A stretch of 41,860 bases of DNA, taken from Armatimonadota bacterium (GTDB lineage: Bacteria > Armatimonadota > UBA5829). The notes under the pieces are model-generated. The model was not told where the DNA came from. It saw nothing but the letters and a program-made list of their open reading frames with translations, and ran no database searches. The stretch lies in assembly GCA_029907315.1 (NCBI GenBank), contig JARYME010000016.1:1-41860 (forward strand), in the 5' to 3' direction. This document shows positions 4,471-22,562 of this stretch, piece by piece. A program made the position numbers and the translations under genes. Numbering within the stretch: the stretch's first letter is position 1; each line of letters starts with the position of its first letter.

Positions 4471-5340
4471 CTAATAAATAACCTTGTTAAGGGGATACTC
4501 AACTATGCCCGATGCGCCCGCGCGCTTGAGCTTGGGGACGAGTTCACGCACCGTTTTTTCCTCGACTATGATCTCCACCGCCACCCACTCGTTTCCAGCA
4601 AGAGGCGATAGAGTAGGCTTCTTGAGCGACGGAAGCACGCTCAGAACCTCTTCCAGTTTCTCATTCGGCACGTTCATCTTCAAACCGACGAACCCCTCCG
4701 CATTCAGTGCAGCCTGAAGCAGCAGTGCCAAGCTCTCCAGTTTTTGGCGCTTCCAGGGGTCCTTCCAAGCTTCGTGGTTGGCTATTAGTCTTGTCGTCGA
4801 TTCGAGCAGCGTTTCTATGATCTCGAGCCCGTGTGCCTGCAGCGTACTTCCGGTCTCGGTTCCGTCGACGATTGCATCGACTAAATCCGGCACCTTTACC
4901 TCGGTTGCACCCCACGAGAATTCGACGTGTGCGTTTACACCCCTTTCGGCGAGGTAGCGTTTGGTAAAGTTTACGAGCTCAGTGGCGATTCGTTTGCCTT
5001 CCAGGTCCTTTACACTACGAATAGGGGATCCCTTTGGTACGGCAAGCACCCATCTGAACGGCCTGTGCGTCGCCTTCGAGTAAACAAGCTCGCAGACTTC
5101 GTGCACGTCGGAGCCGCACTCCTTCACGTTGTCGTATCCCGTAATGCCCGCGTCCAGCACGCCCATTTCGACGTACCGCGGGATTTCCTGAGCGCGCAGC
5201 AGCGTTGCCTGGATCTCGGGATCATCGCACGAAGGGTGATAAGAGCGCGCGTCGACGCGGAAGTCCCAGCCGGCCTTCCTGAACAATTCCAATGTTGCAT
5301 CCTGCAGGCTGCCTTTGGGTAAAGCAAGTTTCAGAACCAA
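4471..5340 (-). CDS. hisG: ATP phosphoribosyltransferase, long form (HisG)
   Basis: HisG joins ATP and PRPP to make phosphoribosyl-ATP, the first and feedback-regulated step of histidine synthesis. The 289-residue product is the long form: a two-lobed catalytic part ([11 protein letters not shown] at the N-terminus, [11 protein letters not shown], and the PRPP-binding loop in the [13 protein letters not shown] stretch) plus a C-terminal ACT-like regulatory domain ending in [12 protein letters not shown]. Long-form enzymes normally do not need HisZ. The start is TTG with TGGAGT upstream. No other histidine gene lies in the window; instead it heads an operon with ruvAB, directly behind a good promoter. 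Confidence 0.96.
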
Positions 5341-5372
5341 CGCAGTCTACTCCATTTCTTTTTGACGGCATC

Positions 5373-5402
5373 ATTATAGACCCTGCAGCCTGGGATGGTC
5401 AA
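5373..5402 (-). promoter_or_regulatory. sigma70-type promoter of the hisG-ruvAB operon
   Basis: Read on the minus strand, TTGACC is followed after 18 bases by a consensus TATAAT. The predicted transcript start lies about 25 bases before the hisG TTG. It is the only convincing promoter ahead of the five-gene operon. Confidence 0.75.
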
Positions 5403-5439
5403 TTGACATGACTTCCGGAGGGGCACTCAGCGGGCAGGT

Positions 5440-5462
5440 AAAAAGCGGCAGCGGCCGGCCGC
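5440..5462 (-). terminator. Probable intrinsic terminator after the Nramp-like gene
   Basis: On the minus strand GCGGC, an 8-base loop, GCCGC and then TTTTT form a short GC-rich hairpin with a U-tract. It lies between the end of the transporter gene and the hisG promoter, where insulation is expected. The stem is only 5 bp, although the arms overlap a longer GCGGCCGGCCGC palindrome that offers alternative pairing. Confidence 0.5.
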
Positions 5463-5727
5463 GGGGGAATGGGGGTGGGGGTGATAACGAAGCCGGCCGC
5501 CACACTGAACAGAGCCGCTTTCGGCTGCAAGCACCGCCCCGATCGACAGTTTTTACTGTCTCGACTGAGAGGAGGATACGTCGATCAGGTAGGCATCCGC
5601 CTCGCCGAAACCGTCGAATGGTCTTCAGCGGTGCGGCATTTGTTTAGACGCTGCTGGTTTCTGTTAGTTACAGGAAATCCGGCAAAAGAAGTTTTTGTCT
5701 GCTCAGAGGCGCTAGCGAGTATACTCG

Positions 5728-6981
5728 TCAGTATCCTAGCAGGGTGCCGACCAGCCATGCGAGCGTCATGGCAATCAACACGACCGCTGTCAGCCAAACC
5801 ACCACGTTGTATGTGCGCGAATTTACGTAGCCGTTCATAACGTCCCTGCTGTTGACGAGCTTCAACATGAAAACGAGGATTACGGGCAAAAGAATGCCGT
5901 TTACTCCTTGCGCGCCGATCATCGTGTTGACCAGGTGCACACTCGGCAACAGCACGACAACTACGCCGACGAGGATGCACAAGGTGTAGATGCTATAGAA
6001 TGTCGGGGCTTCATGGAACCTACGGGAAATCCCGATTTCCCAACCGAACGCTTCACAGTAGGAGTATGCGGTTGAAAGCGGCACCACAGCTGCACCCAAA
6101 AGAGATGCTCCCAACAACCCCAACGCAAAGAGCTTTTCGGCGTAACCGTGCGCCGCTGGTCTCAGAGCAGCAGCTGCCTCTGCCGCGTTCTGGATAGGCA
6201 CCGGCCCGCCGTTAGCGTCGTAGATCATAACCGCGGTGGAGATTATTATGAAGAACGACACCAGGTCGGTAAGGAACGAACCCACAAATACGTCGAGCTT
6301 CTCGTAAGGATAATCCTCTACCCGCACGCCTTTATCGACAACTGTCGCCTGCAGGAAGAACTGCATCCACGGGGTAATGGTTGTACCTATTACGGCGATA
6401 GTGAGGAAGAGGAAATCGGGTCTTGTGTGCAGGCTTCCGAGATTGGGAGAATAAACACTTCTGAAGACTTCGCCCCAGTCAGGCCGAGCCATAAATCCGG
6501 AGACGATATAGGTGGCGTAAAGCACCATTATCGCCATAAAGGCTTTCTCGACAACGCGGAAACTCCCCCGCACTACAAGCAGCCATATAACAAGCGCTGC
6601 TGTCGGCACCGTGATGTATCTGGGCAAGCCGAATATCTCCAAGCTCATAGCTATTCCGGCGAAGTCCGCCACGGTCACACCCAGGTTCGCAACGAACAGG
6701 GTGCCGAGAGCAAACATCGCCCACTTGACCCCGAAGTTTTCGCGGATGAGTTCCCCGAGCCCCTTCTGCGTAATGGTGCCCATTCGTGCTGACATTTCCT
6801 GAACCATCGCCAGCACGAATGTTATCAGCACGATAACCCATAGGAGGTCGAAGCGATACTTGGCGCCCGCTTGGGCGTACGTGATTATCCCCGCGGCATC
6901 GTTGTCCGCGGCGGAAGTGATCACTCCCGGCCCGATAACCGCAAGCAGTGCAAGCAGCTTGTGGCGGCCGAGTCGCCTCAT
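5728..6981 (-). CDS. Nramp-fold transporter, NRMT (magnesium) type
   Basis: A 417-residue, about 11-helix SLC11/Nramp-family transporter. Canonical Nramp proteins carry DPGN in helix 1 and MPH in helix 6, where Asp, Asn and Met bind Mn/Fe and the His takes part in proton coupling. Here helix 1 reads DNDA (26-29, in SAADNDAAG) and helix 6 reads TPW (203-205, in GTTITPWMQFF), so the soft Met ligand and the His are absent. This is the pattern I associate with NRAMP-related magnesium transporters known from Clostridium and Eggerthella. The start is ATG 6981, eight bases after AAAGGAGG; the GTG at 6990 lies inside the Shine-Dalgarno region. It follows a soluble MgtE-N/CBS gene by 150 bp in the same direction. 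Mg2+ uptake is inferred. Confidence 0.87.
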   Translation of the reverse strand: MRRLGRHKLLALLAVIGPGVITSAADNDAAGIITYAQAGAKYRFDLLWVIVLITFVLAMVQEMSARMGTITQKGLGELIRENFGVKWAMFALGTLFVANLGVTVADFAGIAMSLEIFGLPRYITVPTAALVIWLLVVRGSFRVVEKAFMAIMVLYATYIVSGFMARPDWGEVFRSVYSPNLGSLHTRPDFLFLTIAVIGTTITPWMQFFLQATVVDKGVRVEDYPYEKLDVFVGSFLTDLVSFFIIISTAVMIYDANGGPVPIQNAAEAAAALRPAAHGYAEKLFALGLLGASLLGAAVVPLSTAYSYCEAFGWEIGISRRFHEAPTFYSIYTLCILVGVVVVLLPSVHLVNTMIGAQGVNGILLPVILVFMLKLVNSRDVMNGYVNSRTYNVVVWLTAVVLIAMTLAWLVGTLLGY

Positions 6982-7131
6982 ATCGCTCACCTCCTTTCAA
7001 CTCTGGCGGTTTTATTTGCCGACTTTGAGAGTGAGCAAACTCAAACAGGCTACGCAAAGGCGGGTCGCCTTCGCCCCCGTTTTCGCTGCTCTCTGTTGAC
7101 CAGTTACTCCTGCTTATTGCTTGCCCAGGTT

Positions 7132-8388
7132 TCATCGCCATATCCTCGGTACGCGCCGCCGCCAGTCTTCAGGCAGCACTTCCTCAAGCGCGTCGTCGAC
7201 GGTGATGATGCCTCGAATCTTGTTTTCTTCGTCCACCACCGGTACCGCAAGCAGGTTGTAGTCGGTCAGCGTTTGGATGACTTCTTCAACCGATGCGTCC
7301 GTGTGCACGTGGATCACTTTGTCGATCATGAATTCTTCCACGCGCTGACCCGGCTTCGCGACAATTAGGTCGCGCAGCGAGATGACGCCCACCAGGTGCT
7401 GACCGGAATCCACAACGTATATGTAATAGATCGTTTCTGCGTCCGGCTCGAGTTCTCTGATTCGTTCAATGACCTCTTGGGCGGTCATGTCCTTGGAGAC
7501 GGCGACGTATTCCGTCGTCATCAGACCGCCCGCCGTCTTCTCATCATAGGCGAGAAGCTCCTTGACCTCTTCGGCCTCTTCGGGCTCCATTTCCTCAAGA
7601 ATGTCTTCACGCCGCTCCTCGCTGATGTCACCCAGCACGTCTGCCGCCTCGTCCGGTTCCATTTCTTCCAGGATATCGGCAGCCAGTTCGTCTTCCAGGT
7701 TTTCAACTATAGATGCCTGCACTTTGGGGTCGGTTTCGACAAGGACATCTGCCGCCGTTTGCACGTCCAGGTCCTCGATAACGTCCGTGCGCTGGTCCGG
7801 ATCGAGTTCATTTAGGATGCGTGCGATATCGGCAGGATGCAGCTCGCTAAGTCTTTTTGCTGAGACGCGAAGCTTGATCCTCCCCACGCCGCGCTCAAAG
7901 GCTTCTACGTCGTGCCATGCTATGATCTTGGAGCGCAGCTTGATGCCTGTTATTTTTGCCAACTTGTCGAAGACGTGCATCAGGCCCATTCGGCGCAGCA
8001 GTCCTCGCGTGCTGGCATCGACCCCGACAAGATACAACCTGCCTCCTGACGGTTCAAGGCGCACGTCATTTACTCGGACGACGCGGTAGTCGTGGACATC
8101 CACTATTTGCTTGTCCAAAACATTGCGCGCAAGCAGCAGATCTTCGTCCGTGAGCTCGTATTCTTCTACTTGGTCTGCGGGCACCGCCAGCGAGAATCTT
8201 TCTTTCTCAGGATCGTAGTTGAAACAGTGCCACGCCACATCTCGCGTTCGCCGCTTGCTTACCTTGACGACTACCGCAGATACAACAGGCAAGTGTGGAC
8301 CCGGCGACGCAATCAGATCGACAAGTCTTCCGAATTCGCGCCCTTCCGGGTCCTTGATTACTTGTCCAAGAACGTAGGAAAGATACAT
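7132..8388 (-). CDS. PRC-barrel, MgtE N-domain and CBS-pair protein without membrane part
   Basis: The 418-residue soluble protein begins with a PRC-barrel-like domain (about 1-85, LGQVIKDPEGREFGRLVDL). An MgtE N-terminal superhelix follows (about 165-275, HPADIARILNELDPDQRTDV and repeated acidic EEMEPDEAADVL units), then a CBS pair (about 285-400, starting TAGGLMTTEYVAV). In MgtE channels the N and CBS domains bind cytosolic Mg2+ and gate the pore, but the MgtE membrane domain is missing: the protein ends at EDWRRRVPRIWR right after the second CBS. The next gene is the NRMT-type transporter, so this is plausibly its Mg2+ sensor or gate. A good promoter lies upstream with a leader of only about a dozen bases, leaving no room for an M-box riboswitch. 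Confidence 0.88.
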   Translation of the reverse strand: MYLSYVLGQVIKDPEGREFGRLVDLIASPGPHLPVVSAVVVKVSKRRTRDVAWHCFNYDPEKERFSLAVPADQVEEYELTDEDLLLARNVLDKQIVDVHDYRVVRVNDVRLEPSGGRLYLVGVDASTRGLLRRMGLMHVFDKLAKITGIKLRSKIIAWHDVEAFERGVGRIKLRVSAKRLSELHPADIARILNELDPDQRTDVIEDLDVQTAADVLVETDPKVQASIVENLEDELAADILEEMEPDEAADVLGDISEERREDILEEMEPEEAEEVKELLAYDEKTAGGLMTTEYVAVSKDMTAQEVIERIRELEPDAETIYYIYVVDSGQHLVGVISLRDLIVAKPGQRVEEFMIDKVIHVHTDASVEEVIQTLTDYNLLAVPVVDEENKIRGIITVDDALEEVLPEDWRRRVPRIWR

Positions 8389-8407
8389 CTTGCCAATCCG
8401 CCTTTAC

Positions 8408-8435
8408 TTTATACCCGTACGCCCCGGCAAGTCAA
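8408..8435 (-). promoter_or_regulatory. sigma70-type promoter of the MgtE-like/Nramp-like pair
   Basis: On the minus strand TTGACT, a 16-base spacer and TATAAA lie just upstream of the start at 8388. The predicted 5' leader is about 12 nt, nearly leaderless. Confidence 0.65.
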
Positions 8436-8542
8436 CACGACACCAAATGACAGTCTTCCGGTGAATTTGCCGGCGCGACAATGTTTCGCGAGCAGGTGCT
8501 GCTTTGCAAAAGTATTTTTTGGATTAATCCATTCGCTCAGGG

Positions 8543-8571
8543 TAGACTTTTCCAATGTGTGATGCTATAAT
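8543..8571 (+). promoter_or_regulatory. Promoter of the ABC transporter/DUF1854 operon
   Basis: TAGACT, a 17-base spacer and consensus TATAAT, with the start codon about 50 bases downstream. The -35 is imperfect and the -10 is perfect. Confidence 0.6.
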
Positions 8572-8622
8572 GAAAAGGTCTGGCGAGCGAGATCTTCCAA
8601 GCGGACCGTGGTGAATTGAATA

Positions 8623-10875
8623 ATGGCTATTGTAGAACCGCTGCCGGAGAGCGTCCTGGCGGAGCTCAGAAGGCTCGAGGGAACAGACCGAGAACCTGAA
8701 CTGGCTGTGCACAGCGACATCGATGGCGGTGGTAGATTCGGCGAAAGGTGGCTGGTTGCCACCAAAGAACGGGCTTACGTATTCCTGCCTGAAGGCGACA
8801 AGGCTCATCTCCTCCACTGCATCCCTCTCAAGGATATATCCGAAGTCAATACCGAGTTTCTCGTCGGTAGCGGTGTACTTGAGGTCGGGGTCGACGGTAA
8901 GGTAATAGACCTCATCCACTACACCCACACTCTGGCGGCTCGCTTCAACAAAGTTGCCAAGGCTCTGGAGTTGCTGGTTCAGGACGAGCACGTGCCGGAT
9001 ATGGAGCCCGAAGAAGACAGGCGCTGTGAGGTGTGCGGCCGGTTGCTTCCTGAGGGCAGCAAGGTTTGTCCGGCGTGTCTCAACAAAGCCAAAGTCCTCA
9101 AGAGACTACTGAGTCTTACCAAGCCGTATTGGGGTCGATTGCTGCTTGTTGAGGTCCTGATGCTCCTTACGACGGCGATCGGGCTTACGATTCCTTATCT
9201 TAACAAACCGTTCTGGGACAACCTGTTTGGTCGGCCGGTCAATCTGCCGTTCGTGCTGCATCTGACGGGCAGATCGCCGCGAGTGAACATACTCGTAACT
9301 ATAGTTCTTGCTTATGTGTGTATTTGGCTTACATCGTGGATTTGTGCCATCATTCTGGGTCGCCATACCGCCTGGCTCGCAAGCCGCTTGACCTTGGATG
9401 TGCGCGTGCAGCTTTACCAACAGCTGCAGCGGTTGAGCCTGAGCTATTTTGACAAGCGCCAGATCGGCTCTATAATGGCTCGAGTAACCCAGGACACCAG
9501 CGCCCTCAATAGCTTCATGAACAACATCTTGACCTCTTATGTGAGCGGTGCGCTGCTGTTGATAGGCACTTGTGTGATGATGTTCAAGATGTCTTGGCAG
9601 CTTGCTTTGTGGGTGCTGGTGCCTAGTCCTATCGTGGCATTTGTCTCAGGTCTGTACTTCAGGAAGATGATGCGGCGCTACCATAAGTATTGGCACATGG
9701 TATCTCGGGTAGCTGCCGTCTTGCATGATTCGCTGGCAGGCATACGCGTCATTAAAGCCTTTGCCCAGGAAGCTCAGGAAATAGCTCGCTTCACGGAGCG
9801 CACTAGCGCCGCATACAACGCCGAGGTGCAGCTCGCTACTGCAGCCAGCACATTCTGGCCCACCATTGGTCTATTGACGAACTTCAGCACGGCGCTCGTG
9901 TGGCTGGTTGGTGGATACGGCGTAATTATGCACAACCAGAGCCCGGGCACGCTTATGGCGTTTCTGGGCTACATCGGCATGTTCTACGCCCATCTGCAAG
10001 TGATCTGCCGCAGCGGAGACTTTATGTCTTCCAGCCTCACTGCAACTGAGCGCATCTTCGAGGTTCTTGATCAAGAAGTCGAGATTGCCGATGCTCCAGA
10101 TGCCGTCAGTATGCCGGAGATAAAGGGTGAGGTTGAGTTTCGGCACGTGCATTTCGGTTACGAGCCAATCAACCCTGTACTCAAAGACATCAACTTGCAC
10201 GTCAAGCCCGGCGAAATGATCGGACTTGTCGGCCACAGCGGCGCCGGCAAGACCACAATGATCAACCTCATCTGTCGATTCTACGACGTCACCGACGGGC
10301 AGATACTGATTGACGGCGTCGATGTTCGAAAGATCAAGCTCAAGGATCTGAGGCGGCAGATCGGGGTGGTTCTTCAGGAGCCGTTCTTGTTCAACGGCAC
10401 CATCGCTGAGAACATAGCTTACGCGAAAAAAGACGCCAGCCGCGAAGAAATAATTCGAGCCGCGAAGGCTGCCAACGCGCACGAGTTCATAATGCGTCTC
10501 CCTGACGGCTACGATTCCATGGTTGGTGAGCGGGGAGGACGCTTGTCTGGCGGTGAGAGACAAAGGATATCTATAGCACGCGCGATACTGTGCAATCCTA
10601 GAATACTGATTCTCGATGAGGCGACCTCGAGCGTAGACACGCAGGCGGAAAGTCAGATTCAGCAGGCGCTCTCGCGGTTGGTGAAGAACCGCACCACGTT
10701 CGCGATCGCGCACAGACTGTCTACGCTGCGCCAGGCAGACAGGCTTGTTGTGCTCGAAGAAGGCCGCATCGTGGAGATGGGTACACACGACGAACTTATG
10801 GAGCGCCACGGCGTTTATCGCAGGTTGGTGGAGATTCAGCAGGAGCTGTCCAAGATAAAGGCGGTGGACGGTTAA
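8623..10875 (+). CDS. ABC exporter with zinc-ribbon N-terminal extension
   Basis: A 750-residue half-transporter with membrane domain and ATPase in one chain. Residues 1-125 are an unusual soluble domain (ERAYVFLPEGDKAHLLHCIPL). A CxxC...CxxC zinc ribbon follows (C135, C138, C149, C152), then a six-helix type IV exporter membrane domain (about 165-470). The ATPase has Walker A GHSGAGKTT (537-545), signature LSGGERQR (641-648), Walker B LILDEATSS, and H-loop AIAHRLST. It probably acts as a homodimeric exporter. The adjacent DUF1854 gene starts one base after the stop. This ABC/DUF1854 pair recurs in bacteria, and in some proteobacteria is annotated as cyanophycin-associated, but no cphA or cphB is present here. 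Substrate unknown. No clear Shine-Dalgarno precedes the ATG. Confidence 0.92.
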   Translation: MAIVEPLPESVLAELRRLEGTDREPELAVHSDIDGGGRFGERWLVATKERAYVFLPEGDKAHLLHCIPLKDISEVNTEFLVGSGVLEVGVDGKVIDLIHYTHTLAARFNKVAKALELLVQDEHVPDMEPEEDRRCEVCGRLLPEGSKVCPACLNKAKVLKRLLSLTKPYWGRLLLVEVLMLLTTAIGLTIPYLNKPFWDNLFGRPVNLPFVLHLTGRSPRVNILVTIVLAYVCIWLTSWICAIILGRHTAWLASRLTLDVRVQLYQQLQRLSLSYFDKRQIGSIMARVTQDTSALNSFMNNILTSYVSGALLLIGTCVMMFKMSWQLALWVLVPSPIVAFVSGLYFRKMMRRYHKYWHMVSRVAAVLHDSLAGIRVIKAFAQEAQEIARFTERTSAAYNAEVQLATAASTFWPTIGLLTNFSTALVWLVGGYGVIMHNQSPGTLMAFLGYIGMFYAHLQVICRSGDFMSSSLTATERIFEVLDQEVEIADAPDAVSMPEIKGEVEFRHVHFGYEPINPVLKDINLHVKPGEMIGLVGHSGAGKTTMINLICRFYDVTDGQILIDGVDVRKIKLKDLRRQIGVVLQEPFLFNGTIAENIAYAKKDASREEIIRAAKAANAHEFIMRLPDGYDSMVGERGGRLSGGERQRISIARAILCNPRILILDEATSSVDTQAESQIQQALSRLVKNRTTFAIAHRLSTLRQADRLVVLEEGRIVEMGTHDELMERHGVYRRLVEIQQELSKIKAVDG

Positions 10876-10876
10876 G

Positions 10877-11410
10877 ATGCCTGACTGGACGCTGGACTAC
10901 AAGGAAGAGACGGAAGACTCCGGCGAACTGAAGTATCTTGATCCGAAAAAGCTTCGATTCGCAAAGCGCGGCGATGCTTTGATGCTGACAATTGAGAATG
11001 ACAGGACCTACCTGAAGGTTAGGCCCGTGCGCGCTTTCCCGCTTACCGATTTGGACAATTTCATCGGCCTGATGGATGCGGTAACAGGCCGCGAGATAGG
11101 TATGATCCGCAGCTTGCGCGACCTGGATGGTCCGACACGCCAGCTGCTCGAAGCGGAACTCGACAAGCGCTATTTCATCCCGAAGATAACGAAAATCCAC
11201 GAGGCGAAAAAGGAGTTCGGTAGCATCTATTGGGATGTCGAGACGGACCGCGGAAGACGCAAGTTCATTATGCGCAACATACGTGAGAGCATCCACGAAA
11301 TCGAACCAGGGCGCTACCTGCTCATAGACATCGATGGCAACCGATTCGAGATCCCGCAGATCGCCAACTTGAGCTCACGAAGTCAGGCGATTTGGGAGAA
11401 AGTGGTATAG
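10877..11410 (+). CDS. DUF1854 family protein
   Basis: A 177-residue soluble protein with no signal or membrane segment. It matches the DUF1854 pattern I remember: a charged N-terminus, VRPVRAFPLTDLDNFIGL, the ELDKRYFIPKITKI stretch, WDVETDRGRRKFIMRN, and RYLLIDIDGNRFEIPQ near the end. It starts one base after the ABC exporter's stop, so the two are translationally linked. DUF1854 proteins occur almost always beside this kind of ABC transporter and probably serve as its cytosolic partner; the biochemical role is unknown. Confidence 0.88.
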   Translation: MPDWTLDYKEETEDSGELKYLDPKKLRFAKRGDALMLTIENDRTYLKVRPVRAFPLTDLDNFIGLMDAVTGREIGMIRSLRDLDGPTRQLLEAELDKRYFIPKITKIHEAKKEFGSIYWDVETDRGRRKFIMRNIRESIHEIEPGRYLLIDIDGNRFEIPQIANLSSRSQAIWEKVV

Positions 11411-21278: not shown

Positions 21279-22562
21279 ATGTCGGGTCAGAATATTGGAA
21301 GGTTTCAGATAATACGAGAGATCGGGCGAGGAGCAGCCGCGGTAGTGTATGAAGCACTTGACCCGCGCATTGGACGTCCGGTTGCTTTGAAGGTCTTGGC
21401 TGTAGGCGCGGGGCTAACCGGCGCTGTGCGGCGAGAGGCTATCGAGCGTTTTTACCGAGAGGCACGGTCGGCGGGCAAATTGTCGCATCCGAACGTCGCT
21501 CAGGTGTACGATGTAGGCGAGGATGCGGGCAGGCACTACATAGCAATGGAATTGTGCCACGGTGTGAGCTTGCGCGATGTGCTGCGTTTCGAGGGACGAA
21601 TCCAGGAAGCTCGGCTTAAGTTCATAGCGCTGCAGATTCTGAACGCGCTTGAGGCAGCGCATGCGGTGGGCATCGTCCATCGCGACGTTAAGCCCGAGAA
21701 CATCATTATAGGGCCCAAGGATCTGGTAAAACTTACCGACTTTGGTATTGCGAAGGCTTTGGGCGAGTCTACGATGACCCAAACCGGTGTTATGCTCGGG
21801 ACCCCTGCCTATATGTCGCCTGAGCAGGTGCTGGGTAGGAGCGTGGATGCACGCAGTGACTTGTTCTCGCTGGGCGCAGTTCTTTACGAGTGTCTTTCCG
21901 GACGAAAAGCGTTCGACGGTGAGAGCATTACGGCGGTTACACACAAAGTGGCTTATGTGGATCCGGAGCCTCTAAAGGGTGTGGCTCCACCGTGGCCCGA
22001 TATTGTGATGAAACTGCTTGCGAAGTCTCCGGCAAATCGGTATCAGTGTGCCACAGATGTGCTCTCGGACATTCGCGCCGATCGCTCGCCAGTTCAGCCT
22101 CAGCAGCAGCTGCCTTCTGCATCTCAGCAAGGTGTTCAGCCTCAGCAGGCGAGCCAGACGCTCCAGGGAGCAGGCTGTGTGATACTACCTCCGAGTGTGT
22201 CGGCTCAGCAACCGACCTCCCGTTGTCCGCGGTGCGGGTCTTATTTCAGTGGCAATTTTTTGTCGTGTCCTTACTGCGGTCAACCGCAGCGCGCCTTGCA
22301 GGTTCCGCCGCCATATCCATCCGCAAGAAATATACCGGACAACCTTGGTTGGGCTATCTTGGTAACACTTTTCTTCTGCCTGCCGCTCGGCATAGTTTCG
22401 ATTGCGAAAGCAATTGAGGCGAATGCGAAGAAGGCTTCGGGGGATTACGACGGAGCCTATGCCGCATACCATTTGTCGAGGTTTTGGATGTGGGCCAGCG
22501 TGCTTTTTGGTATCTGTGTGGGATTTTTCATGGGTATGCTGAGCGCGATCGAACAAGGATAA
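21279..22562 (+). CDS. Ser/Thr protein kinase with zinc ribbon and dispanin-like C-terminus
   Basis: A 427-residue Hanks-type kinase. The kinase domain (about 8-270) has glycine loop GRGAAAVV (16-23), VALK with Lys38, HRDVKPEN with catalytic Asp136, DFG Asp154 and GTPAYMSPEQ, so all key residues are present. A Gln/Ser/Pro linker follows, then a four-cysteine zinc ribbon (about 314-335; CPRCG and CPYCG). The end has two membrane helices (about 360-425): NLGWAILVTLFFCLPLGIVSI, the GDYDGAYAAYHLSRFWMW loop and a second hydrophobic stretch. This tail matches the CD225/dispanin (IFITM-like) pattern rather than the single helix plus PASTA repeats of usual bacterial kinases. A DUF2752 gene overlaps its 3' end. 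A membrane-tethered signalling role is inferred; substrates are unknown. Confidence 0.9.
   Translation: MSGQNIGRFQIIREIGRGAAAVVYEALDPRIGRPVALKVLAVGAGLTGAVRREAIERFYREARSAGKLSHPNVAQVYDVGEDAGRHYIAMELCHGVSLRDVLRFEGRIQEARLKFIALQILNALEAAHAVGIVHRDVKPENIIIGPKDLVKLTDFGIAKALGESTMTQTGVMLGTPAYMSPEQVLGRSVDARSDLFSLGAVLYECLSGRKAFDGESITAVTHKVAYVDPEPLKGVAPPWPDIVMKLLAKSPANRYQCATDVLSDIRADRSPVQPQQQLPSASQQGVQPQQASQTLQGAGCVILPPSVSAQQPTSRCPRCGSYFSGNFLSCPYCGQPQRALQVPPPYPSARNIPDNLGWAILVTLFFCLPLGIVSIAKAIEANAKKASGDYDGAYAAYHLSRFWMWASVLFGICVGFFMGMLSAIEQG

Follow-up and report, generated by a model that had tools for sequence, protein, structure and literature searches.

A soluble MgtE-like sensor beside an NRMT-type transporter in an Armatimonadota genome: a candidate two-part system for Mg2+ uptake

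Why should a soluble protein that resembles the cytosolic half of the MgtE channel be encoded directly upstream of a transporter that is unrelated to MgtE? The question is raised by two adjoining genes in the window, which is the whole 41,860-nucleotide stretch of DNA analyzed here (Armatimonadota bacterium, assembly GCA_029907315.1, contig JARYME010000016.1). A stand-alone MgtE-N-like gene was previously reported beside most NrmT genes; the partner was not required for transport, and a cytoplasmic feedback or chaperone role was proposed for it (Shin et al. 2014, PMC4072509). In that study, the NrmTs of C. acetobutylicum carried Mg2+ without the partner, and in a single co-expression test with Acidobacterium capsulatum the partner had no effect on Mg2+ rescue. 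EleNRMT is likewise active alone in liposomes (PMC8806188), and the paper describing its structure makes no mention of the operon context (Ramanadane et al. 2022, PMC8806188). In the open-access literature, no later paper on the MgtE-like partner was found. Both the pairing and the proposal of feedback thus date from 2014 and are not new here. The present analysis adds the co-occurrence of unlinked genes, the conserved Mg2+ ligands, the PRC domains, the intermediates with a dead pore and the lack of alternative importers in this genome.

The transporter and its metal site

The product of the downstream gene matches PF01566 with an E value of 1.7e-91 and scores 365 bits against EleNRMT (7qia), compared with 87 bits against DraNramp. 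Its AlphaFold2 model has a mean pLDDT of 85, and the best fold match is EleNRMT, with TM-scores of 0.89/0.93. In an 87-row tree, the transporter groups with EleNRMT and the sensor-linked NRMTs with a support of 98/96, and the canonical DPGN/MPH Nramps form a separate group with a support of 100/100; the phylogeny thus places the transporter in the EleNRMT clade, apart from the canonical Nramps. Translation probably starts at the ATG behind the Shine-Dalgarno sequence, which yields a protein of 417 residues, rather than at the alternative GTG (Table 1).

The metal site was located by alignment to EleNRMT, whose D55 and G58 come out at exactly their published positions. The preliminary description had read the broken helix 1 as DNDA in place of DPGN, and this reading is misregistered: of the two Asp residues in "DND", the second is the conserved one, which gives D28-A-A-G31. 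Its reading of the broken helix 6, in which TPW replaces MPH, is correct, and the soft Met ligand and the proton-linked His are both gone (T203-P-W205; Met230 to Thr and His232 to Trp in the DraNramp numbering). Trp205 occupies the first proton-linked His position in helix 6b, as a Trp also does in EleNRMT, and the conserved Glu of helix 3 is replaced by Asp106. With D-A-A-G, T-T-I-T and Trp in place of His, the site is exactly the published NRMT signature DxxG-TxxA/T (PMC8806188). Metal site, scores and tree position all mark the transporter as an NRMT, as had been proposed, and this assignment fits the corrected register (DAAG) better than the alignment from which it was originally drawn.

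The partner protein and the arrangement of the two genes

On the minus strand, the sensor gene is followed by a 150-nt gap and then by the transporter gene. Among PDB entries, the sensor matches the MgtE cytosolic domain from Thermus best (167 bits, residues 175-404), with which it shares the fold at a TM-score of 0.84 by target length. The composition stated in the preliminary description, PRC together with MgtE_N and a CBS pair and no channel, is borne out by the domain matches in Table 1 and by the sensor sequence (7132-8388), in which no hydrophobic segment was found and which thus contains no channel. Across the whole genome, the MgtE membrane domain (PF01769, with the pore Asp432) was not found, and the MgtE_N domain of the sensor is the only one found. 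In the N-terminal region, AlphaFold2 predicts two small β domains (residues about 1-80 and 83-158). The PRC match in this sensor alone is below threshold (E 0.65), and PRC is above the Pfam cut-off in three relatives of the same N-terminal architecture (L074, L075 and L077). The second PRC-like domain is among the best-conserved parts of the sensor (DKQIVDxHDYRVVRVNDV), and no mention of the two domains was found in the NrmT/NRMT papers (PMC4072509, PMC8806188). Additionally, the sensor is very acidic, with a net charge of about -38.

The Mg2+-coordinating residues of Thermus MgtE (PMC5882242) and its ATP pocket (PMC5529423) were mapped onto 110 sensors. The ligands D91, D95 and D247 are conserved in 97-99% of these proteins, the E59 position is E or D in 96% and the D250 position is D or E in 92%; the D226 position is mostly Asn. 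The sensor in the window retains D246 and D399 (Mg4; D91 and D247 in MgtE), D250 (Mg6; D95) and D214 (Mg7; E59), and the Mg5 ligands (D226 and D250) are altered to N378 and E402. The plug helix (E258/D259) is missing and, with it, the sites Mg2 and Mg3; nor is the ATP pocket retained, and 97 of the 110 sensors have Leu at the position of Phe227. The retained residues make Mg2+ sensing by this protein plausible. With the plug helix and ATP pocket gone, plug coupling and ATP tuning in the manner of MgtE are not plausible, and any coupling to the NRMT would need another surface.

The two genes are likely on one transcript: a promoter-like site precedes the sensor gene, a terminator-like site follows the transporter gene, and the 150-nt gap between them contains neither kind of site. 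A related TTGAC...TRTAAA site lies close before the sensor start in several family members. No M-box riboswitch was detected in the window at the gathering score, and none was detected at E ≤ 1 in 6900-8800; additionally, the promoter-like site leaves only about 18 nt before the start codon, which is no room for an M-box leader. Riboswitch control was accordingly rejected for this locus. A regulatory RNA in the 150-nt gap was also considered and dropped, since the gap folds only marginally more stably than shuffled sequences (z -1.8) and is poorly conserved beyond the nearest relatives. M-box Mg2+ riboswitches do lie near the sensor-NRMT operon in five Bacillota loci. In one MAG of Pelosinus (L146), tandem M-box riboswitches (5278-5455 and 5596-5767) are found upstream of the operon.

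Two further loci in the window deserve mention. At 8623-11410 on the plus strand, a divergent ABC transporter and a DUF1854 protein resemble NCBI's cyanophycin metabolism-associated pair, with both proteins below the model cut-offs, and 21279-22562 on the plus strand encodes a Ser/Thr protein kinase with a C-terminal CD225 (IFITM-like) membrane domain.

Table 1. Features of the sensor-transporter locus, in positions of the window
Feature	Position	Strand	Remarks
Promoter-like site TTGACT-N16-TATAAAG	8406..8435	-	18 nt before sensor ATG
Soluble MgtE-like sensor, 418 aa, PRC-PRC-MgtE_N-CBS-CBS	7132..8388	-	no membrane segment
First PRC-like domain, residues about 1-80	8149..8388	-	PRC above Pfam cut-off in relatives; AlphaFold2
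Second PRC-like domain, residues about 83-158	7915..8142	-	AlphaFold2
MgtE_N domain, residues 183-284	7537..7842	-	E 3.7e-29
CBS pair, residues 287-404	7177..7530	-	E 2.7e-23
Shine-Dalgarno sequence of transporter, AAAGGAGGTG	6988..6997	-	resembles those of most family members
NRMT-type Nramp-related transporter, 417 aa	5728..6981	-	ATG 6981; alternative GTG 6990
Metal-site motif, broken helix 1: D28-A29-A30-G31 (DxxG)	6889..6900	-	alignment to EleNRMT D55-G58
Metal-site motif, broken helix 6: T200-T-I-T203-P-W205 (TxxT)	6367..6384	-	alignment to EleNRMT T224-A227-W229
Terminator-like hairpin with T run, downstream of transporter	5437..5462	-	consensus match only

Distribution and origin of the sensor module

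The 80 sensor genes of the GTDB genomes that are closest to the one in the window belong to Armatimonadota, Chloroflexota, Nitrospirota, Bacillota, Actinomycetota, Acidobacteriota, Thermodesulfobacteriota and others. An NRMT lies within 600 bp of 69 of them, and in 68 of these 69 it is downstream on the same strand. The two genes overlap or abut in 18 of 53 countable pairs, often with an overlap of 4 bp. Every readable NRMT neighbor has DxxG as its helix-1 site, and the Acidobacteriota members sampled have TTISPY at helix 6. Eggerthella (Actinomycetota) also has a sensor-NRMT pair, and its NRMT is nearly identical to EleNRMT. For ten of the loci where no NRMT adjoins the sensor, a search of the whole genome reveals an NRMT-like gene elsewhere in every case, with a weak match in one.

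The association also extends to genes that are far apart. Among 151 Armatimonadota genomes, the NRMT and the stand-alone sensor form 51 pairs, approximately 29 linked and approximately 22 unlinked; in two one-contig genomes, they are separated by 0.78 and 2.4 Mb. The co-occurrence is strong: 43 of 116 good Armatimonadota genomes have both genes, 4 have only the NRMT, 1 has only the sensor and 68 have neither, and the corresponding counts for 118 Nitrospirota genomes, requested at a completeness of at least 90%, are 49, 0, 1 and 68. The Fisher values of these 2x2 counts, approximately 1e-25 for Armatimonadota and 1e-32 for Nitrospirota, overstate the significance because the genomes share ancestry and the counts are not phylogenetically independent. 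Nevertheless, unless the two are functionally tied it is hard to see why many families would retain both genes at unlinked positions, and control of the carrier by the sensor would be the likeliest reading of the co-occurrence of genes so far apart.

No conserved third gene was found beside the unlinked sensors or NRMTs in 10 loci, and no frame that joins a sensor to an NRMT was found. The candidates for such a fusion, long frames in L096, L163 and L200, were rejected as other reading frames or overlaps, and split sensors in G276 and G233 were left out, as one adjoins a run of N and the other looks like a frameshift. Five Nitrospirota genomes (L202-L206 in G222, G204, G206, G270 and G258) contain a second, diverged NRMT with the site DAGG TTIAPW. 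Its partner, a PRC/MgtE_N/CBS-like protein, is likewise a second and diverged one, and the gene order is reversed, with the transporter first.

The preliminary description held that the sensor had been split off from MgtE, and this view gains support from fused relatives with live and dead pores. In six Armatimonadota genomes, the PRC-PRC-MgtE_N-CBS module is fused to an MgtE membrane domain in proteins of about 600 residues (L074-L078 and L188, in G016, G030, G001, G090, G068 and G115). All five that are readable to the end (L074-L078) have lost the pore Asp432 and the GGNxGxQ motif and appear to be pore-dead MgtEs; the sixth (L188) is cut by a contig end. An NRMT is also present in five of these six genomes, with one fused gene directly upstream of it, and in the good genomes G068, G090 and G115 the fused protein stands in for the stand-alone sensor. 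In the only Nitrospirota genome with the module but no NRMT (G268), the module is part of an MgtE whose pore Asp is intact (L201), a fusion that may represent the ancestral form of the sensor. A change of target by the sensor would be expected to leave this pattern, a live channel where the NRMT is absent and a dead channel or none where it is present, although the numbers are small. In a separate arrangement (L209 in G079), a complete MgtE that retains its pore Asp directly follows an Nramp-related protein from a different clade (DPSG TTISPY).

Substrate, proposed control and relation to known systems

The genome, which is 97% complete, contains no CorA, MgtE channel domain or MgtA-type P-ATPase over the cut-off, which leaves the NRMT as the only importer of these classes found. 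A congener likewise has neither CorA nor the MgtE channel, and its best P-ATPase match is below the MgtA cut-off. Family knowledge makes Mg2+ probably the substrate of the transporter. In the mechanism favored here, to which a probability of roughly 0.57 is assigned as a whole, the two genes would form one Mg2+ uptake unit, in which the NRMT would import (partly hydrated) Mg2+ without proton coupling and the upstream protein would act as a cytosolic, MgtE-derived Mg2+ sensor that has no channel of its own. At high cytosolic Mg2+, the N and CBS domains of the sensor would close over bound Mg2+, as in MgtE, and the closed sensor would bind or block the NRMT (or, at low Mg2+, the sensor would let the NRMT run). 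The outcome would be post-translational negative feedback in trans. The gating in trans, which the preliminary description had suggested, appears slightly favored by the genomic evidence, and the contact between sensor and transporter and the sign of the effect are proposed with the same slight preference.

Alternatively, the transporter may import mainly Mn2+ or a broad range of divalent metals, with a partner that responds to Mn2+ or to divalent metal in total, a reading proposed for A. capsulatum. The NrmT of that organism, which has a like partner, rescued a Mn2+ transport mutant and hardly a Mg2+ transport mutant (PMC4072509), and EleNRMT also carries Mn2+ with a Km of about 120 µM (PMC8806188). 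Additionally, no canonical DPGN/MPH Nramp (MntH) was found in the genome, whose only other PF01566 protein (L002, G000:C155) has no metal-site motif; together with the A. capsulatum case, this makes Mn2+ import by the present NRMT possible. However, a genome without CorA, MgtE and MgtA would then be missing a Mg2+ importer, the site DxxG-TxxT with its Trp is that of EleNRMT whereas the sampled Acidobacteriota have TTISPY, and Mg2+ riboswitches lie near the same type of operon in Bacillota, so a mainly Mn2+-directed or broad role is rather unlikely. A similarly low probability is assigned to the view that the partner merely shares the regulon of the NRMT and serves as a cytosolic Mg2+ buffer or chaperone, or as a sensor for another target such as CorC/CNNM. 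A chaperone role was also proposed by Shin et al. (PMC4072509), and the strong acidity of the sensor, the CNNM gene present in this genome and the unlinked genes without a conserved neighbor in several Armatimonadota families would all fit. This view is at odds with the near-perfect match in presence and absence with the NRMT specifically in two phyla, and with the pairing of the second diverged sensor and the second diverged NRMT in reversed order in the five Nitrospirota genomes. The PRC-MgtE relatives that have lost the pore Asp in NRMT genomes would also be compatible with a sensor that is a relic of an ancestral PRC-MgtE channel, left without a present role after the NRMT took over. This is highly improbable, as a relic would decay, whereas a protein of about 420 residues with its ligands at 97-99% has been kept in the operon across many phyla.

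Feedback on Mg2+ uptake is understood for channels with a built-in sensor. If the sensor governs an unrelated carrier in trans, as the favored mechanism proposes, two Mg2+ transporters that are unrelated to each other have exchanged a module for regulation. The co-occurrence, the ligands and the series of live-pore, dead-pore and stand-alone forms point to the NRMT as its target. Whether this extends to NRMTs generally is an even call: they may be two-part systems in which a PRC/MgtE_N/CBS sensor sets the activity of the carrier in trans, a sensor that is mostly soluble, is sometimes carried on a pore-dead MgtE and is joined to a working MgtE channel where the NRMT is absent. In that case, the solved EleNRMT structure would miss its regulatory subunit.

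A comparison with known systems reveals both the common features and the differences. The transporter and the canonical Nramp/MntH proteins (DraNramp, ScaDMT and EcoDMT) have the LeuT-type fold in common, with a TM-score of about 0.8 by query length for DraNramp, but the transporter lacks the DxxN, the A/CxxM and the proton-path His and falls in a separate, fully supported clade. Compared with EleNRMT, helix 1 has DAAG instead of DAGG, and helix 6 has Thr (T203) instead of Ala227. The transporter clade, the metal-site signature and the adjoining stand-alone MgtE-domain homologue are shared with the described NrmT/NRMT systems (PMC4072509; PMC8806188); in contrast to the Mg2+-dedicated subset of NrmT operons with an M-box (Shin et al. 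2014), the present locus has no M-box and a promoter-like site instead. The sensor and Thermus thermophilus MgtE have in common the N domain, the CBS pair and the ligands of Mg4, Mg6, Mg7 and, in part, Mg5, whereas the sensor is without the plug helix, the membrane domain and Phe227 of the channel and carries an extra N-terminal PRC pair.
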